A DNA stretch of 64,000 bases, taken from Tolumonas lignilytica. GTDB taxonomy: Bacteria > Pseudomonadota > Gammaproteobacteria > Enterobacterales > Aeromonadaceae. Position numbers and translations under genes: made by a program. The first letter of the stretch is position 1. Every line of letters starts with the position of its first letter. Below the pieces are notes generated by a model, which was not told where the DNA came from, did not search any database, and worked only from the letters and a program-made list of their open reading frames with translations. The stretch spans positions 1,996,001-2,060,000 of the forward strand of contig NZ_AZUK01000001.1 of NCBI RefSeq assembly GCF_000527035.1. Direction: 5' to 3'. This document shows, piece after piece, positions 31,147 through 36,061 of this stretch.

Positions 31147-32169
31147 TCAATAATGCCGGAAAAACGGTGAAATCTGTGTGCTGAAGGCGTGAGCCATGCC
31201 ATAACCCAGCAGGATCAAGAATATTCCTCCCAACAGCGCGATGATTTCCAGACTGTAATACACCCATGGCCCGGATTTTTTATGACTAATGAGACGGATC
31301 GCCAGATGACGCATGCTGTGGCTGAACCAGGCGAGTAAACACACGGTTCCAGCAGTGCCGAGCGCCATCAATAAGACGGCGGCAATTCCCAGTGAGAACA
31401 GACCGATGGATTTGGCCAACACCATGATCAGGAGGGCACCAGTGCAGGGACGGATCCCCATGGTGAACATGACTCCCAGTTGGCTGTGCCAGTCTTGCGC
31501 CTTGTTTAATTGCGTGAGATCCGGGGTGTGGGCATGGCCACAGCCGCAGGCGGCTTGCGAGGAAACGGGTTGGCGCTGGAGCCCGGTCACGGTTTTATGG
31601 CTGGCCGGTTGTACGCGATGAATGGTGAATCGGGGTTTTGCCGGTTGTCTGAGTTGGTATAACCGATAAGTAGCGCGCAGACTGAGATAACCACCCAGCA
31701 GGGCAATCAGCCAGAAACTGAATTGATCCAACTGCAGACCGAATTGCTGGGCGCGGATCTGTGTCCAGCCGAGTAAAGTGGTGATAACCGTCATCAGCAA
31801 GATGGCGACCAGCGCCTGCATCAGGGCGGCCCCCAGCGACAGACTCATTGCTCGTTTTAGCTGGCTGTCATGTGTGGCCAGATAGGTGCTGAGTACGGCT
31901 TTACCATGGCCGGGCCCGACCGCATGAAATACACCGTAGAGAAAGCAGAGCCCCAGCAGTAATGCTTTGGTTTTGATATCAGGGCTCAGCGCAGCCCGTA
32001 ACAGAATGGCCATTTGCTTATGCAGCTGATTTTGCCATTGCATGACCTGCCAGCTGAGCCACTGCCAGTGCAACATGGCGGTGAGCAGGATGCCACCTAA
32101 GGCAAGAAATGCTGTCAGCAGAAGAATGAAATGAACACGATCTTGTTGCGGTGTGGTTATGGATGACAT
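31147..32169 (-). CDS. NicO-type (nickel/cobalt efflux or uptake family) metal permease
   Basis: A 340-aa polytopic protein of the NicO/RcnA superfamily, with the two family motifs GVFHAVGPGHGKAVLSTY (first third) and MGIRPCTGALLIMVLA (second half). A cysteine/histidine-rich loop (CGCGHAHTPD) lies between them and could bind metal. About seven hydrophobic segments are present. The start overlaps the DUF1007 gene by 13 bases. The family is best known for Ni/Co, but its place at the end of an operon headed by a Zur box suggests a role in zinc handling here; the substrate is an inference. Confidence 0.82.
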   Translation of the reverse strand: MSSITTPQQDRVHFILLLTAFLALGGILLTAMLHWQWLSWQVMQWQNQLHKQMAILLRAALSPDIKTKALLLGLCFLYGVFHAVGPGHGKAVLSTYLATHDSQLKRAMSLSLGAALMQALVAILLMTVITTLLGWTQIRAQQFGLQLDQFSFWLIALLGGYLSLRATYRLYQLRQPAKPRFTIHRVQPASHKTVTGLQRQPVSSQAACGCGHAHTPDLTQLNKAQDWHSQLGVMFTMGIRPCTGALLIMVLAKSIGLFSLGIAAVLLMALGTAGTVCLLAWFSHSMRHLAIRLISHKKSGPWVYYSLEIIALLGGIFLILLGYGMAHAFSTQISPFFRHY

Positions 32170-32786
32170 GTCACGATGACCTTTTCAGCAAAGAGTGTTC
32201 CCAGTCCTTTATCGCTTTGCTGTGTTACATCCAGCGAAGCGGCATAAGCACTTAGATCGTCTGGGGGTTTCGGGGTTTCAAGCCGTGCACTGCACAGTTT
32301 GCTGGCATTATCCGAGAAGCTGATGGCGCTGAGTCTGTGGTGCAGCATCTCCACATAATAGGTTGAATCATAAATGGAGAGGCTGAAGGTATTGCCTTTG
32401 ACCACGACGGGTTCTTTCAGCGGCAGCACAAAATGCAGCACCAGATGATATTGCTGTTTTTCAGTGCGGTAAGCCGTCGGCGGGGAGAAGGTGAGATCTT
32501 TTCCATTCATTTTTAAATGGGTTAACCAGTTCTCGGAAGCCATGAATTCAACGCTTTGTTTGGCAAAATCCTGATATTGCTGTGCCAGCGGCTCTTTCTT
32601 CTGCTTCATGTCTTCGATGATGTTGGCGGAATAAAAATCGTCGAAGTGCCAGATCAGATCGAGTGCCGTTAATTGCTGTTTATCATCAATCAAAAAGCGG
32701 GTTTGCAGATCCATCCAAGCATGCGGATGAGCCATCGCCAGCGGTGCGGCGAGGCTCAACAGAAGAAATAGGCAGAATCTTTTCAT
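32157..32786 (-). CDS. DUF1007 periplasmic protein
   Basis: A 209-aa exported protein with a signal peptide ending in LAMAHPHAW (cleavage about residue 19), followed at once by HPHAWMD, a His-rich mature N-terminus typical of DUF1007. The family often sits next to NicO-type permeases, as here, and is thought to bind metal. The ATG at 32786 and one codon before it (32789) are both possible; they follow the znuA stop directly. The 3' end overlaps the permease gene. Confidence 0.82.
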   Translation of the reverse strand: MKRFCLFLLLSLAAPLAMAHPHAWMDLQTRFLIDDKQQLTALDLIWHFDDFYSANIIEDMKQKKEPLAQQYQDFAKQSVEFMASENWLTHLKMNGKDLTFSPPTAYRTEKQQYHLVLHFVLPLKEPVVVKGNTFSLSIYDSTYYVEMLHHRLSAISFSDNASKLCSARLETPKPPDDLSAYAASLDVTQQSDKGLGTLFAEKVIVTCHP

Positions 32787-32789
32787 CAT

Positions 32790-33698
32790 TTACTGCTTCA
32801 GCGCGGCCAGAATTTGTGCGGTATTGTAGCGCATCATGTCCAGATAGGTCGAAGCCGGACCATCCTTGGCGGACAAGGCGTCGGAGTACAATTCCTTACC
32901 GGGGATCACACCGGTTTCTTTGCTGATTTGCAACATCAGCCGCGGGTCAGAAATATTTTCGACAAACAGGGCTTTGATCTTTTCCTTACGGATTTGCTGG
33001 ATAATTTTTGCCACATCACCGGCAGACGCTTCGGATTCGGTATTGACGCCCTGCGGGGCAATGGCGGTGAGCTGATAGTGACGTGACAGATAGCCAAAGG
33101 CATCATGGCTGGTGATCATCTTGCGCTGTTCGCTTGGGATCGCGGCAAATTCCTGTAACAGGGTATGGTCGAGCGCGTCCAGCTTCTGAATATAGTTCGC
33201 GGCATTGCGCTGATAATCGGCCTGATGGGCCGGGTCGGTCTGGCTTAAGCCATCTGCAATGTTATGTACATATTGGATCACATTGGGAATGCTGTGCCAG
33301 GCGTGAGGGTCTTGGGTGGGCTGCGCATGTTTTGCCGCATCTTCGGCATCAACGAAGGTCTGGGGTTGAATGCCCTGACTGGCGGTGATCACCTTGCCTT
33401 TGTAATGACTGGCGGACACCAATCGATCCATCCAGCCTTCAAAGCCCAGTCCATTGACGACAAATAACTGTGAGTGGGTCAGATGGATGGTGTCCTGCGG
33501 CGTTGGCTGATAAACGTGCGCATCACCATTCACTCCAACCAGTGTCGTCACGGTGACATGTTCTCCACCCACCTGTTTCACCAAATCGCCGAGGATTGAG
33601 AAACTGGCCAGCACCGGTATCTTATCAGCGGCAAACACGCTGCTACTGCTCAGACAGGATGCCAATACGGCAGAAACGAGGAGCGATGATAAACGCAT
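32790..33698 (-). CDS. znuA: Zinc (metal) ABC transporter substrate-binding protein
   Basis: A 302-aa periplasmic cluster A-I metal-binding protein; signal peptide ends SSSVFAADK (about residue 24). Likely ligands are His in GDAHVYQPTP, DPHAWHS and SHDAFGYL and the Asp in ELYSDALS. The His/Asp-rich loop of E. coli ZnuA is missing; only a short KHAQPTQDPHAWH segment is there, so on sequence alone manganese or iron are possible. The Zur box, znuB, znuC and zur support zinc. TAAGGAG precedes the start. Confidence 0.88.
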   Translation of the reverse strand: MRLSSLLVSAVLASCLSSSSVFAADKIPVLASFSILGDLVKQVGGEHVTVTTLVGVNGDAHVYQPTPQDTIHLTHSQLFVVNGLGFEGWMDRLVSASHYKGKVITASQGIQPQTFVDAEDAAKHAQPTQDPHAWHSIPNVIQYVHNIADGLSQTDPAHQADYQRNAANYIQKLDALDHTLLQEFAAIPSEQRKMITSHDAFGYLSRHYQLTAIAPQGVNTESEASAGDVAKIIQQIRKEKIKALFVENISDPRLMLQISKETGVIPGKELYSDALSAKDGPASTYLDMMRYNTAQILAALKQ

Positions 33699-33707
33699 GA
33701 AAACTCC

Positions 33708-34586
33708 TTAGGCTTGCAGATGTGAACGGTGAACATAACGCCAGAGCAAACCGCTTTGACGCCCAAAAATCACCGAGAGAAAATAGCCGATCCCCAATGT
33801 CAGGATGATGGCCGGACTGGTAGGCCACCCCAAATGGTAGGAAATCAGCAGACCAACCAGTGCACTGAACATGGCCAGTAGCACAGAAATCAGTAACAGG
33901 TGGCTGAGACGGTTGGTCCAGTAACGGGCCGTGATGGCGGGCAGGATCATGATGCCGACTGCCATCAGGGTGCCAATGGCGTGGAACCCGGCGATCAGAT
34001 TCAGCACCGCCAGCAAGAGAAACGCGATGTGGGCAATCGGCCCCATCCGGCTGACGCTGCCGAGAAAATCCGGATCCAGACACTCCATCACCAAAGGGCG
34101 ATAGAGCAGTGCCAGCAAGAGCAGCGTGAGTGAAGTGACACTTCCCAGCAGCCAGAGTGCGGCGTCGTTCAAGGCCAGGGCAGAACCGAACAGGACATGC
34201 AACAGATCGACACTGCTGCCATGCACGGAAATAATCATCACCCCCAGTGCCATCGAGATCAGATAGAACGCGGCCAGACTGCTGTCTTCGCCACTTTCGG
34301 TCAGGCGCGCCACAAATCCGGACAGGATCACCACCAGTCCACCGGCCAGCAACCCACCAATGGTCATCGCTTCCACCGACAACCCAGCCACCAGATATCC
34401 CAGTGCGGCACCGGGTAAGATGGCATGTGCCATCGCATCACCGGTCAGGCTCATCCGGCGCAACATCAAAAAGACACCCACCAGTGGCGCACTGAGTGAT
34501 AACGCAATACAACCGGCCAGAGCCCGTAGCATAAAATCAAATTCGGCAAAGGGTTGGATCAACCACTGCCATAACAAGGTGAGCAT
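33708..34586 (-). CDS. znuB: Zinc ABC transporter permease
   Basis: A 292-aa ABC-3 family permease with about eight hydrophobic segments; the family stretch LRRMSLTGDAMAHAILPGAA is clear near residue 45. It moves metal across the inner membrane with ZnuC. The start at 34586 (MLTLLWQWLIQPF) overlaps the znuC stop by one base (TGATG). The longer in-frame extension to 34616 lies inside znuC. Followed by znuA after nine bases. Confidence 0.91.
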   Translation of the reverse strand: MLTLLWQWLIQPFAEFDFMLRALAGCIALSLSAPLVGVFLMLRRMSLTGDAMAHAILPGAALGYLVAGLSVEAMTIGGLLAGGLVVILSGFVARLTESGEDSSLAAFYLISMALGVMIISVHGSSVDLLHVLFGSALALNDAALWLLGSVTSLTLLLLALLYRPLVMECLDPDFLGSVSRMGPIAHIAFLLLAVLNLIAGFHAIGTLMAVGIMILPAITARYWTNRLSHLLLISVLLAMFSALVGLLISYHLGWPTSPAIILTLGIGYFLSVIFGRQSGLLWRYVHRSHLQA

Positions 34587-35329
34587 CAGGCAACTTCCTT
34601 TTCTGAGAGATGACACACCGGAGCATCTTCATCAAACGAGTCGATTTGATGACGGGCCTGTTGCCAGTTTTCTGCGGTGATCACCTCGGCGGTCGGGCCG
34701 TAAGCGATCATCTGGCGGGCCAGTAACAGGCTCTGCGGAAAGTGATGACGGACCTGTTCGTTGTCATGCAGCACCGCCAGAATGGTACGGCCTTGTGCAT
34801 GCCAGTGATGCAACAACTGCAGCAGATCCTGACAGGTTCGGCTATCAATGGCGTTGAAGGGTTCATCCAGCAGGATCAGCTGTGCATCCTGCAGATAAAG
34901 CCGGGCAAACAGGGTGCGTTGCAGTTGTCCACCAGACAGTGAGGCGATCGGGCGGTTGGCAAAACCCTGCATGCCCACGGCGGCCAGTGCATGTTCAATC
35001 TGATGGCGGTGTGCCTTGGTCAAACGGCCAAAGCTACCCAGTTCACGCCATAGGCCCATGCCGACCAGTTCCGTGACGCTGATGGGAAACTGTCGGTCAA
35101 TGCGCGATTGTTGCGGCAGATAGGCGATCTGCTCGCGGGTGATACCTTGTAGCTGTAAAGTGCCCTGCAGGGGTTTTAGCTTGCCCATGATACCTTTCAG
35201 CAGCGTCGATTTACCGGCGCCATTAGGGCCAACAATGGCCAATAGCTGACCGGCTGGGATATCCAGATTCAGATGATGAATGGCCGGGTGCCGATCATAC
35301 CCCAGCGTCAGATTTTCAAACCGTAGCAT
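34586..35329 (-). CDS. znuC: Zinc ABC transporter ATP-binding protein
   Basis: A 247-aa ATPase with Walker A GPNGAGKS (34-41), signature LSGGQLQRTLFARLYL and Walker B LILLDEPFNAID. The start at 35329 (MLRFENLTLGYDR) gives the normal family length; the frame stays open to 35476 but that part has no ABC similarity and overlaps a separate small gene. It follows that small gene by two bases. Confidence 0.92.
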   Translation of the reverse strand: MLRFENLTLGYDRHPAIHHLNLDIPAGQLLAIVGPNGAGKSTLLKGIMGKLKPLQGTLQLQGITREQIAYLPQQSRIDRQFPISVTELVGMGLWRELGSFGRLTKAHRHQIEHALAAVGMQGFANRPIASLSGGQLQRTLFARLYLQDAQLILLDEPFNAIDSRTCQDLLQLLHHWHAQGRTILAVLHDNEQVRHHFPQSLLLARQMIAYGPTAEVITAENWQQARHQIDSFDEDAPVCHLSEKEVA

Positions 35330-35331
35330 GA

Positions 35332-35463
35332 TTAACGCATACTCCAGAGTAAGAGCGCCCAGATCGGCAATAAGATGACAGCAGCAACTAACAGGCGTTG
35401 CCCGACGGACCAGAATAGACTGGCTGCTGGCCGTGGCGATGAAGCTTGATGGGAATGAGACAT
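35332..35463 (-). CDS. Small membrane protein ORF (43 aa) at the head of the zinc operon
   Basis: A 43-codon ORF starting MSHSHQASSP: a His/Ser-rich N-terminus, a basic middle (VGQRL) and one strong hydrophobic helix LLVAAVILLPIWALLLW, ending SMR. I do not recognise the family. Its stop is two bases before znuC, and the Zur box lies 34 bases upstream of its ATG, so it would be the first gene of the Zur-controlled transcript. No strong ribosome site is visible, which lowers confidence. The N-terminal HSH could bind metal. It may be a small accessory subunit of the transporter. Confidence 0.55.
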   Translation of the reverse strand: MSHSHQASSPRPAASLFWSVGQRLLVAAVILLPIWALLLWSMR

Positions 35464-35496
35464 TGCAGTGAACCATGAGGTTACAGATTGTTGCGG

Positions 35497-35513
35497 ATGT
35501 TATAACATAACAT
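35497..35513. promoter_or_regulatory. Zur box between zur and the zinc operon
   Basis: ATGTTATAACATAACAT contains TGTTAT-N3-ATAACA, close to the known Zur palindrome (TGTTATANTATAACA with one mismatch). It lies in the 148 bp between the small ORF/znuC and divergent zur. Zinc-bound Zur would repress the operon and perhaps itself. Confidence 0.85.
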
Positions 35514-35611
35514 TCGGGATGAAAAGTATTATCAATAAGACTTTTTGCTGCTGAATCGGCAGTGATTCGGTATCCTTAATAGGGATCAGGTTATTCAGGA
35601 GTATTGAACCC

Positions 35612-36061
35612 ATGCAGCATGCATCGCCTCGCTGTGAACATAATCAGGCCGGCTTGACCACCAATCGCCGGTTAGTGCTGGATGTATTGCTGCAGGCGGA
35701 TCGGGCCGTCAGTGCTTATGACGTGCTACAACTGTTGCGTGAGAAAGAGGTGCACTGGCAGCCGCCGACTGTGTATCGAGCACTGGCGTTTCTGGTCGAG
35801 GCGGGGATGGTGCACTATATCCAGTCGATCCAGAAATATATGGTTTGCCATCATCAACACTGCGGACATGTCACGCAATTGTTGATTTGCCATCGGTGCG
35901 GACAGGTGCAGGAAGTGCCGATCGCTGACTCACTGGTGGCGGAACTGGAACAACAGGCCGCCGCGTATCATTTCACGTTAATTCCGCAATTTCTCGAATT
36001 GCAGGGCATTTGTGCCACATGTCAGGGCGAGAACACGGATGTTCAGATAACAGAACGCTGA
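35612..36061 (+). CDS. zur: Fur-family zinc uptake regulator
   Basis: A 149-aa Fur-family repressor. The winged helix has VSAYDVLQLLREK and PPTVYRALAFLVEAGMVH (residues 33-68), matching E. coli Zur more than Fur. Structural zinc cysteines are Cys93 and Cys96 (LICHRCGQ) and Cys134 and Cys137 (ICATCQ); regulatory-site ligands probably include Cys79 and the CHHQHCGH cluster. It lacks the His-rich tail of E. coli Zur. AGGAG precedes the ATG. It is divergent from the zinc operon, with a Zur box between. Confidence 0.9.
   Translation: MQHASPRCEHNQAGLTTNRRLVLDVLLQADRAVSAYDVLQLLREKEVHWQPPTVYRALAFLVEAGMVHYIQSIQKYMVCHHQHCGHVTQLLICHRCGQVQEVPIADSLVAELEQQAAAYHFTLIPQFLELQGICATCQGENTDVQITER

Follow-up and report, generated by a model that had tools for sequence, protein, structure and literature searches.

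The zinc-importer operon and its first ORF

The window, meaning the whole stretch of DNA analysed here, is 64,000 nt of the Tolumonas lignilytica genome (contig NZ_AZUK01000001.1, positions 1,996,001 to 2,060,000). It contains a set of genes for a zinc ABC importer, all on one strand and in the order small ORF, znuC, znuB, znuA, DUF1007 gene and NicO-like gene, with the gene zur oriented divergently. The features are as follows, with coordinates counted from the first base of the window.

35612..36061, plus strand: zur, divergent Fur-family regulator (PF01475)
35498..35512, no strand assigned: Zur-type box TGTTATGTTATAACA, separating zur from the small ORF and invariant in the 11 aligned Tolumonas loci
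35332..35463 (stop included), minus strand: small ORF of 43 aa, first ORF of the operon, predicted single-pass membrane protein
35449..35463, minus strand: MSHSH, the N-terminal arm, whose HSH appears to be an abbreviated version of the His-rich arm of relatives
35338..35427, minus strand: helix predicted for residues 13-42, in which R23, W35 and W40 lie; confidence is high from residue 21 onward
34586..35329, minus strand: znuC, AztA-like ATPase (NF040873, 229.6 bits, cut-off 220)
33708..34586, minus strand: znuB, AztB-like permease (PF00950; NF040871, 246.5 bits, cut-off 280), its start taken as the ATG overlapping the znuC stop (the listed ORF runs to 34616)
32790..33698, minus strand: znuA, AztC-like binding protein (PF01297; NF040870, 294.3 bits, cut-off 350)
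32157..32789, minus strand: DUF1007 protein (PF06226), presumably ZevA-like
31147..32169, minus strand: nickel/cobalt-transporter-like membrane protein, overlapping the DUF1007 gene and taken by us to be NicO/ZevB-like

The small ORF specifies MSHSHQASSPRPAASLFWSVGQRLLVAAVILLPIWALLLWSMR (43 aa), ends in a TAA stop, and is separated from the ATG of znuC by two bases (TAATCATG). By eye, no clear Shine-Dalgarno sequence precedes it in the window strain, which counts against its easy translation. The ATPase passed the cut-off of the AztA model, and the permease and binding protein scored below those of the AztB and AztC models, yet these were the best NCBIfam models for both proteins. The importer is nearer to the AztABC models than to those of E. 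coli ZnuABC, and because the AztB and AztC cut-offs were missed, it is referred to here as AztABC-like rather than AztABC. No AztD match was found between 30001 and 37000 of the window. In one draft Tolumonas genome (locus L012, genome G003), the znuC match contains an in-frame TGA, which could reflect either a pseudogene or an assembly error.

Judged by sequence, the small ORF is the first ORF past the Zur-type box, which matches the pattern exactly and which we take to be a Zur box from the known consensus and the neighboring zur gene. A scan of 35440-35640 found no sigma-70 promoter. When the whole genome was scanned with up to one mismatch allowed, the pattern occurred once and a reversed control pattern four times, so that the genome-wide count is no evidence, and the evidence for this putative Tolumonas box is its position and its conservation in 11 loci. 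In the wider samples described below, the pattern (as we wrote it) was found upstream in only 34 of the 56 loci from the order and 18 of the 98 from the phylum, and zinc control at the remaining loci is therefore unsupported by the pattern.

Coding evidence and spread of the small ORF

An earlier note on this DNA had described the small ORF as lying between a Zur box and znuC, with HSH near its start and a single helix, and had made frame conservation in close relatives one of the points on which it should stand or fall. The description agrees with what is found: the ORF runs from 35463 to 35332 on the minus strand with the box upstream and the two-base gap to znuC, HSH makes up residues 3-5, and AlphaFold2 predicts one helix. 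The frame is likewise kept, the ORF being intact and immediately before znuC in all 11 Tolumonas genomes searched, with purifying selection on its product. At one of these 11 loci there is a difference of one in-frame codon, at another the small ORF and znuC overlap as ATGA, and the proteins of seven aligned genus members are 72–88% identical to that of the window.

In seven representatives of the 11 genus genomes, the pooled pN/pS was 0.20 in the frame of the small ORF, and the two alternative frames gave 0.81 and 4.9. After shuffling of the alignment columns the mean was 0.90, and none of 500 shuffles gave a value as low as 0.20. Pairwise NG86 ratios for 7 of the 11 genomes were finite in 13 of 21 pairs, ranging from 0 to 0.18 (rough values, as synonymous sites were often near saturation), and the other eight pairs were saturated. 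Since all 11 genomes retain the frame and it is under purifying selection, the small ORF is, on this comparative evidence, a real and conserved gene and more than a chance reading frame.

Direct searches with the small protein gave clear matches only in Tolumonas (11 of 75 Aeromonadaceae genomes, with a best E-value of 0.0075 outside the genus), and a search of a contig collection returned six loci, all titled Tolumonas. Direct sequence search is no measure of the spread of this protein, and a positional search was used instead, covering the region upstream of the ATPase gene at loci with an AztB-like permease, in drawn samples of 394 (order), 369 (class) and 398 (phylum) genomes. Among the 64 Aeromonadaceae genomes outside the genus, an AztB-like permease was found in 3 of 19, and all three loci have a small ORF of 32–40 aa with a single hydrophobic stretch. 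The order sample had a permease match in 57 of 394 genomes, the window's included; of the other 56 loci, 47 have the small ORF by a relaxed motif and 53 by eye (L118 doubtful), and none was seen at L117, at L119, where the upstream sequence ends after 333 bases, or at L150, whose genome is 1.0 Mb. K replaces R at three order loci (L121, L126 and L127). In the class sample, a small ORF was seen by eye at 11 of 13 loci, and none at L166 and L172.

The permease was present in 98 of the 398 phylum genomes, at 99 places; leaving out L311, a second place in genome G1114 where the ATPase is not adjacent, gives 98 phylum loci, window included. A strict motif, learned partly from the same loci on which it was scored, identified at 71 of the 98 an R-x11-W ORF with one hydrophobic stretch that ends near the ATPase start, and seven more relatives were added by eye (L183, L187, L295, L308, L314, L316 and L320), bringing the family to 78 members. 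At 20 of the 98 loci the small ORF was found neither by the strict motif nor by eye, so not every AztB-type importer has one. Dinucleotide-shuffled upstream DNA satisfied the strict motif at a mean of 1.15 of 98 loci (largest value 3 in 40 rounds), as did 6 of the 1052 start positions belonging to other ORFs of at least 150 aa at the same loci, and a tighter motif retained 67 of the 98 loci with none in shuffled DNA and none at other ORF starts. Columns outside the search motif are also conserved in the 78 members (counting from R: S in 74% at -9, L in 87% at +11, W in 74% at +17 and A in 85% at +18). At 20 other ABC-3 (metal ABC) loci of the family Aeromonadaceae, no small ORF was found; this negative control excludes L065-L071, where the upstream sequence is cut off, and L155-L158, which repeat L080, L083, L084 and L086 (0 of 31 before exclusion). 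The family members are 29–86 residues long (median 48.5). In 51 of the 78 the stop falls within the range -8 to +7 relative to the inferred start of the ATPase gene, and 17 of the 78 have it at +4, as in an ATGA overlap. Short relatives of the small ORF precede AztB-like importers in many other Proteobacteria.

The idea that the small ORF belongs with the DUF1007/NicO-like pair instead of the importer was rejected, as a same-strand DUF1007 gene was detected at 1 of the 78 small-ORF loci, that of the window itself (the query was from Tolumonas, and distant DUF1007 proteins may be missed). Paracoccaceae La 6 has genes for nickel transport and for an uncharacterised periplasmic protein downstream of the importer, and Thioclava has a DUF1007 gene upstream of it.

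The small ORF was also found in 11 of 17 named regions: Paracoccaceae La 6, Comamonas antarctica, Skermanella, Gemmobacter, Thioclava, Methylobacterium, Bartonella, Azospirillum, Neisseria gonorrhoeae, Enterobacter hormaechei and the zni locus of Klebsiella pneumoniae. It was not found in five (two aztABCD operons, Sinorhizobium RAC02, Mesorhizobium huakuii and Bradyrhizobium 172), and the Roseomonas region (L325), which gave no ATPase match, is counted only in the total of 17. Three bearers have a 'hypothetical protein' annotated at this place (LA6_005487, HUK68_RS21680 and JL100_RS36275), and no gene is listed there for the others in a gene table that is incomplete by its own description.

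Co-inheritance with the permease and features of the family

A permease tree was built from 104 sequences (the 98 phylum loci and six named records), 82 with and 22 without the small ORF. Presence of the ORF requires four changes on this tree, compared with 20.3 for shuffled labels, and 20 of the 22 absences fall in two clades. The first, of 12 loci (L241, L243, L245, L246, L251, L254, L256, L259, L272, L309, L226 and L227), has support of 100/100, is nested among bearers, and holds the two annotated AztABCD operons. The second consists of eight loci of family f186, another f186 locus (L240) having both the small ORF and a different permease. The remaining absences are L312, from a 1.0-Mb genome (G134), and the long-branched L310. 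Loss of the small ORF is the likely reading of these absences, though not the sole one, as the root of the tree is unsure. Overall, such a distribution would be expected of a protein that is integral to the importer and yet can be replaced.

Two strongly reduced genomes carry the importer; that of L313 (1.2 Mb, G219) keeps the small ORF, and none was detected in that of L312. A strict exchange, by which a locus would have either the small ORF or AztD, found no support as a general rule, since AztD was detected at three of the 20 ORF-less phylum loci (once on the opposite strand) and at none of the 78 bearers. AztD is also present in the two annotated AztABCD operons, and is found in 5 of the 12 members of the larger clade without the ORF. 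The Tolumonas permease belongs to a clade of four (support 99/93) that includes a plasmid copy from Paracoccaceae, 64% identical, and because of this grouping the Tolumonas operon may have been acquired by horizontal transfer.

AlphaFold2, run on a single chain with a 40-member alignment, predicted a helix over residues 13-42 of the Tolumonas protein, with pLDDT values of 92–96 for residues 21-40 and 63 for residues 11-20; the N-terminus is of low confidence. All sequences of the same alignment have R23 and W35, and nearly all have W40. Loci of the alpha-, beta- and gammaproteobacteria share the pattern R-L-x2-A-x6-LW-x4-WA, usually after SLL. The Tolumonas protein fits the R-x11-W pattern with R23, W35 and W40, and has L24, A27 and I34 in register, its SLF lying one residue nearer to R than the SLL of most members. 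Before the helix (15 residues plus R), the family has 152 K+R against 35 D+E, compared with 17 and 10 after it. By the positive-inside rule, these positive charges ahead of the helix suggest an N-in, C-out topology.

Function of the small protein and comparison with known systems

The small ORF probably encodes a single-pass, inner-membrane accessory subunit, a fourth one in the broad sense, of AztB-type zinc ABC importers, and represents an unnamed protein family. A small subunit of the zinc importer had been suggested in the earlier note, and it stands as the best-supported reading, given that the ORF goes with the importer type across the phylum sample and that its absences cluster as described; that the protein is physically part of the complex is what we infer. 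Its synthesis would be translationally coupled to that of the ATPase, and it would insert N-in/C-out, leaving the arm in the cytoplasm. The face bearing R and W may pack on the permease and so serve assembly, stability or gating, and the arm, presumably at the cytoplasmic mouth, could bind zinc as it enters. The Tolumonas arm (MSHSH) is short, and the membrane part must therefore carry the core function. Operon linkage alone cannot separate a subunit from a regulator that is made with the importer.

One alternative is a zinc relay or sensor, in which a His-rich arm takes zinc leaving the permease and hands it to a COG0523 metallochaperone, or acts as a brake on the importer when zinc is replete. 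His is the commonest residue of the N-terminal arms (251 of 1497, with start codons chosen by rule), and 26 of the 78 members have at least three. Of the 17 loci at which a COG0523-like gene lies downstream, 15 have arms with at least five His, as do 4 of the 61 that lack such a gene. These 17 represent only three families, and the one from f232 has a single His. Within family f224 the arms have 3–13 His with a COG0523-like gene and none without (five loci each). The arms of 14 loci (L247, L250, L253, L255, L260-L262, L264, L266-L268, L271, L275 and L277) have 8–18 His, and a same-strand COG0523-like gene follows all but L277. Against this, about two thirds of the members have fewer than three His, the cytoplasmic placement of the arm is itself a deduction from charge, and Paracoccaceae La 6, Gemmobacter and Skermanella all have a COG0523-type GTPase downstream, yet their arms lack His. 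Because of these three loci the COG0523 link is a lead only, and as the arm is variable, a zinc-binding role is likely to be secondary or lineage-specific. We regard a relay or sensor as the main function as unlikely.

The small protein might instead be an independent product of zinc starvation that acts on some other target, such as an exporter or a protease, and merely shares the operon. MntS of E. coli, a manganese protein, is a model for a small protein acting on another target, and many known small membrane proteins regulate other proteins; the small size of the Tolumonas protein and its Zur-type box are in keeping with this. The ORF nevertheless tracks one importer type over the phylum sample, was found at none of the 20 other ABC-3 loci of the Aeromonadaceae, and in 51 of 78 cases stops within a few bases of the ATPase start (-8 to +7), all of which make an independent role decidedly improbable. 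A leader ORF with an inert peptide, one that merely sets the translation or transcription of znuC, would account for the tight spacing, the ATGA overlaps and the first position in the operon, but the amino acid sequence is under purifying selection and a pattern of about 28 positions, which a pure leader need not keep, recurs across classes; we consider this very unlikely.

An out-of-frame ATG at 35476 opens a 296-aa znuC reading across the small ORF (34586-35476, minus strand), and gene prediction that favors the longest ORF would mask the small gene. That the small ORF is an artefact, the true gene being an N-terminally extended znuC from this ATG, is scarcely credible, for the 296-aa ORF is present in the window strain but its frame is open for just 249 aa in seven of the 11 genus genomes (six of them mutually close), and codon changes favor the small-ORF frame (pN/pS of 0.20 against 0.81 and 4.9).

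An accessory subunit remains the preferred reading. No Pfam model matched any of 40 family members at an E-value of 0.01. Relaxing this to 1 for ten members gave three Pfam matches (E-values of 0.035–0.09), and NCBIfam gave two for ten members (0.097 and 0.16), all below the cut-offs. A sequence-profile search of the PDB found no relative (best E-value 0.39), and no description of the small gene turned up in searches of an open-access literature collection. Since a conserved small ORF recurs before them, AztB-like importers probably have an overlooked fourth part, and if so, studies of these importers by reconstitution, complementation or inhibitors may have omitted a component. A more ambitious proposal, tentative and on balance doubtful, is that of a phylum-wide fourth subunit whose helix sits on the permease and whose arm, His-rich in many lineages with a neighboring COG0523 gene, passes zinc to the metallochaperone, giving a direct route from importer to chaperone. 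The association of His-rich arms with COG0523 genes makes it testable how imported zinc reaches COG0523 chaperones, and if the route exists, lineages without the subunit would have changed how their importer is served.

Several characterized importers are related to that of Tolumonas. AztABCD of Paracoccus denitrificans, according to the available text of PMC5387054, is induced by zinc depletion, and its ABC type is the same as that of the Tolumonas importer. The two annotated aztABCD operons (Paracoccus alcaliphilus and K. pneumoniae pBio30) differ in lacking the small ORF, and AztD, which belongs to AztABCD operons, has no match near the Tolumonas operon. ZniCBA of K. pneumoniae has, like Tolumonas, an AztB-like permease, and a small ORF precedes the ATPase region of the zni locus (35 aa in K. 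pneumoniae CP125156, 33 aa in Enterobacter hormaechei). The zni locus lies between mltB and pncC, so that pncC is found downstream of the operon where Tolumonas has the DUF1007 and NicO-like genes. In CP125156.1 (L224), the match to the zni ATPase begins only at query residue 108, and neither the ATPase nor the binding protein has a CDS in the incomplete gene table of the record. In K. pneumoniae zniA is expressed more strongly when zinc is limiting, and the available parts of the source describe the importer as three genes and do not mention a small one (PMC10797113); the word 'hypothetical' is absent from the main text of that paper. In Neisseria gonorrhoeae, the permease is 56% identical to that of Tolumonas, and a 34-aa small ORF precedes the ATPase gene of an unannotated locus that we infer to be znuCBA/mntABC. 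The gonococcal ZnuCBA/MntABC handles zinc and manganese and, in the available text, is described as three genes (NGO_0170-_0168), a small gene going unmentioned there (PMC9280163).

The Tolumonas protein may be set beside other small proteins by its size and its setting in the operon. MntS of E. coli, of about 42 aa, is made under metal limitation; it is encoded outside an importer operon and is not known to have a membrane helix, and the Tolumonas protein differs in both respects. KdpF, CydX, AcrZ and CbiN are experimentally tested small membrane subunits of transporters or oxidases, all of them short and hydrophobic and each working for a larger complex in the membrane. The Tolumonas protein is a predicted counterpart and, unlike these four, matches no Pfam model. 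It shares with KdpF and CbiN a short, single-pass form (the helix being predicted) and is both co-encoded and co-inherited with its importer, the latter with only four changes on the permease tree. Small transporter subunits are a known kind, and a conserved one for an AztB-type importer appears to be new.
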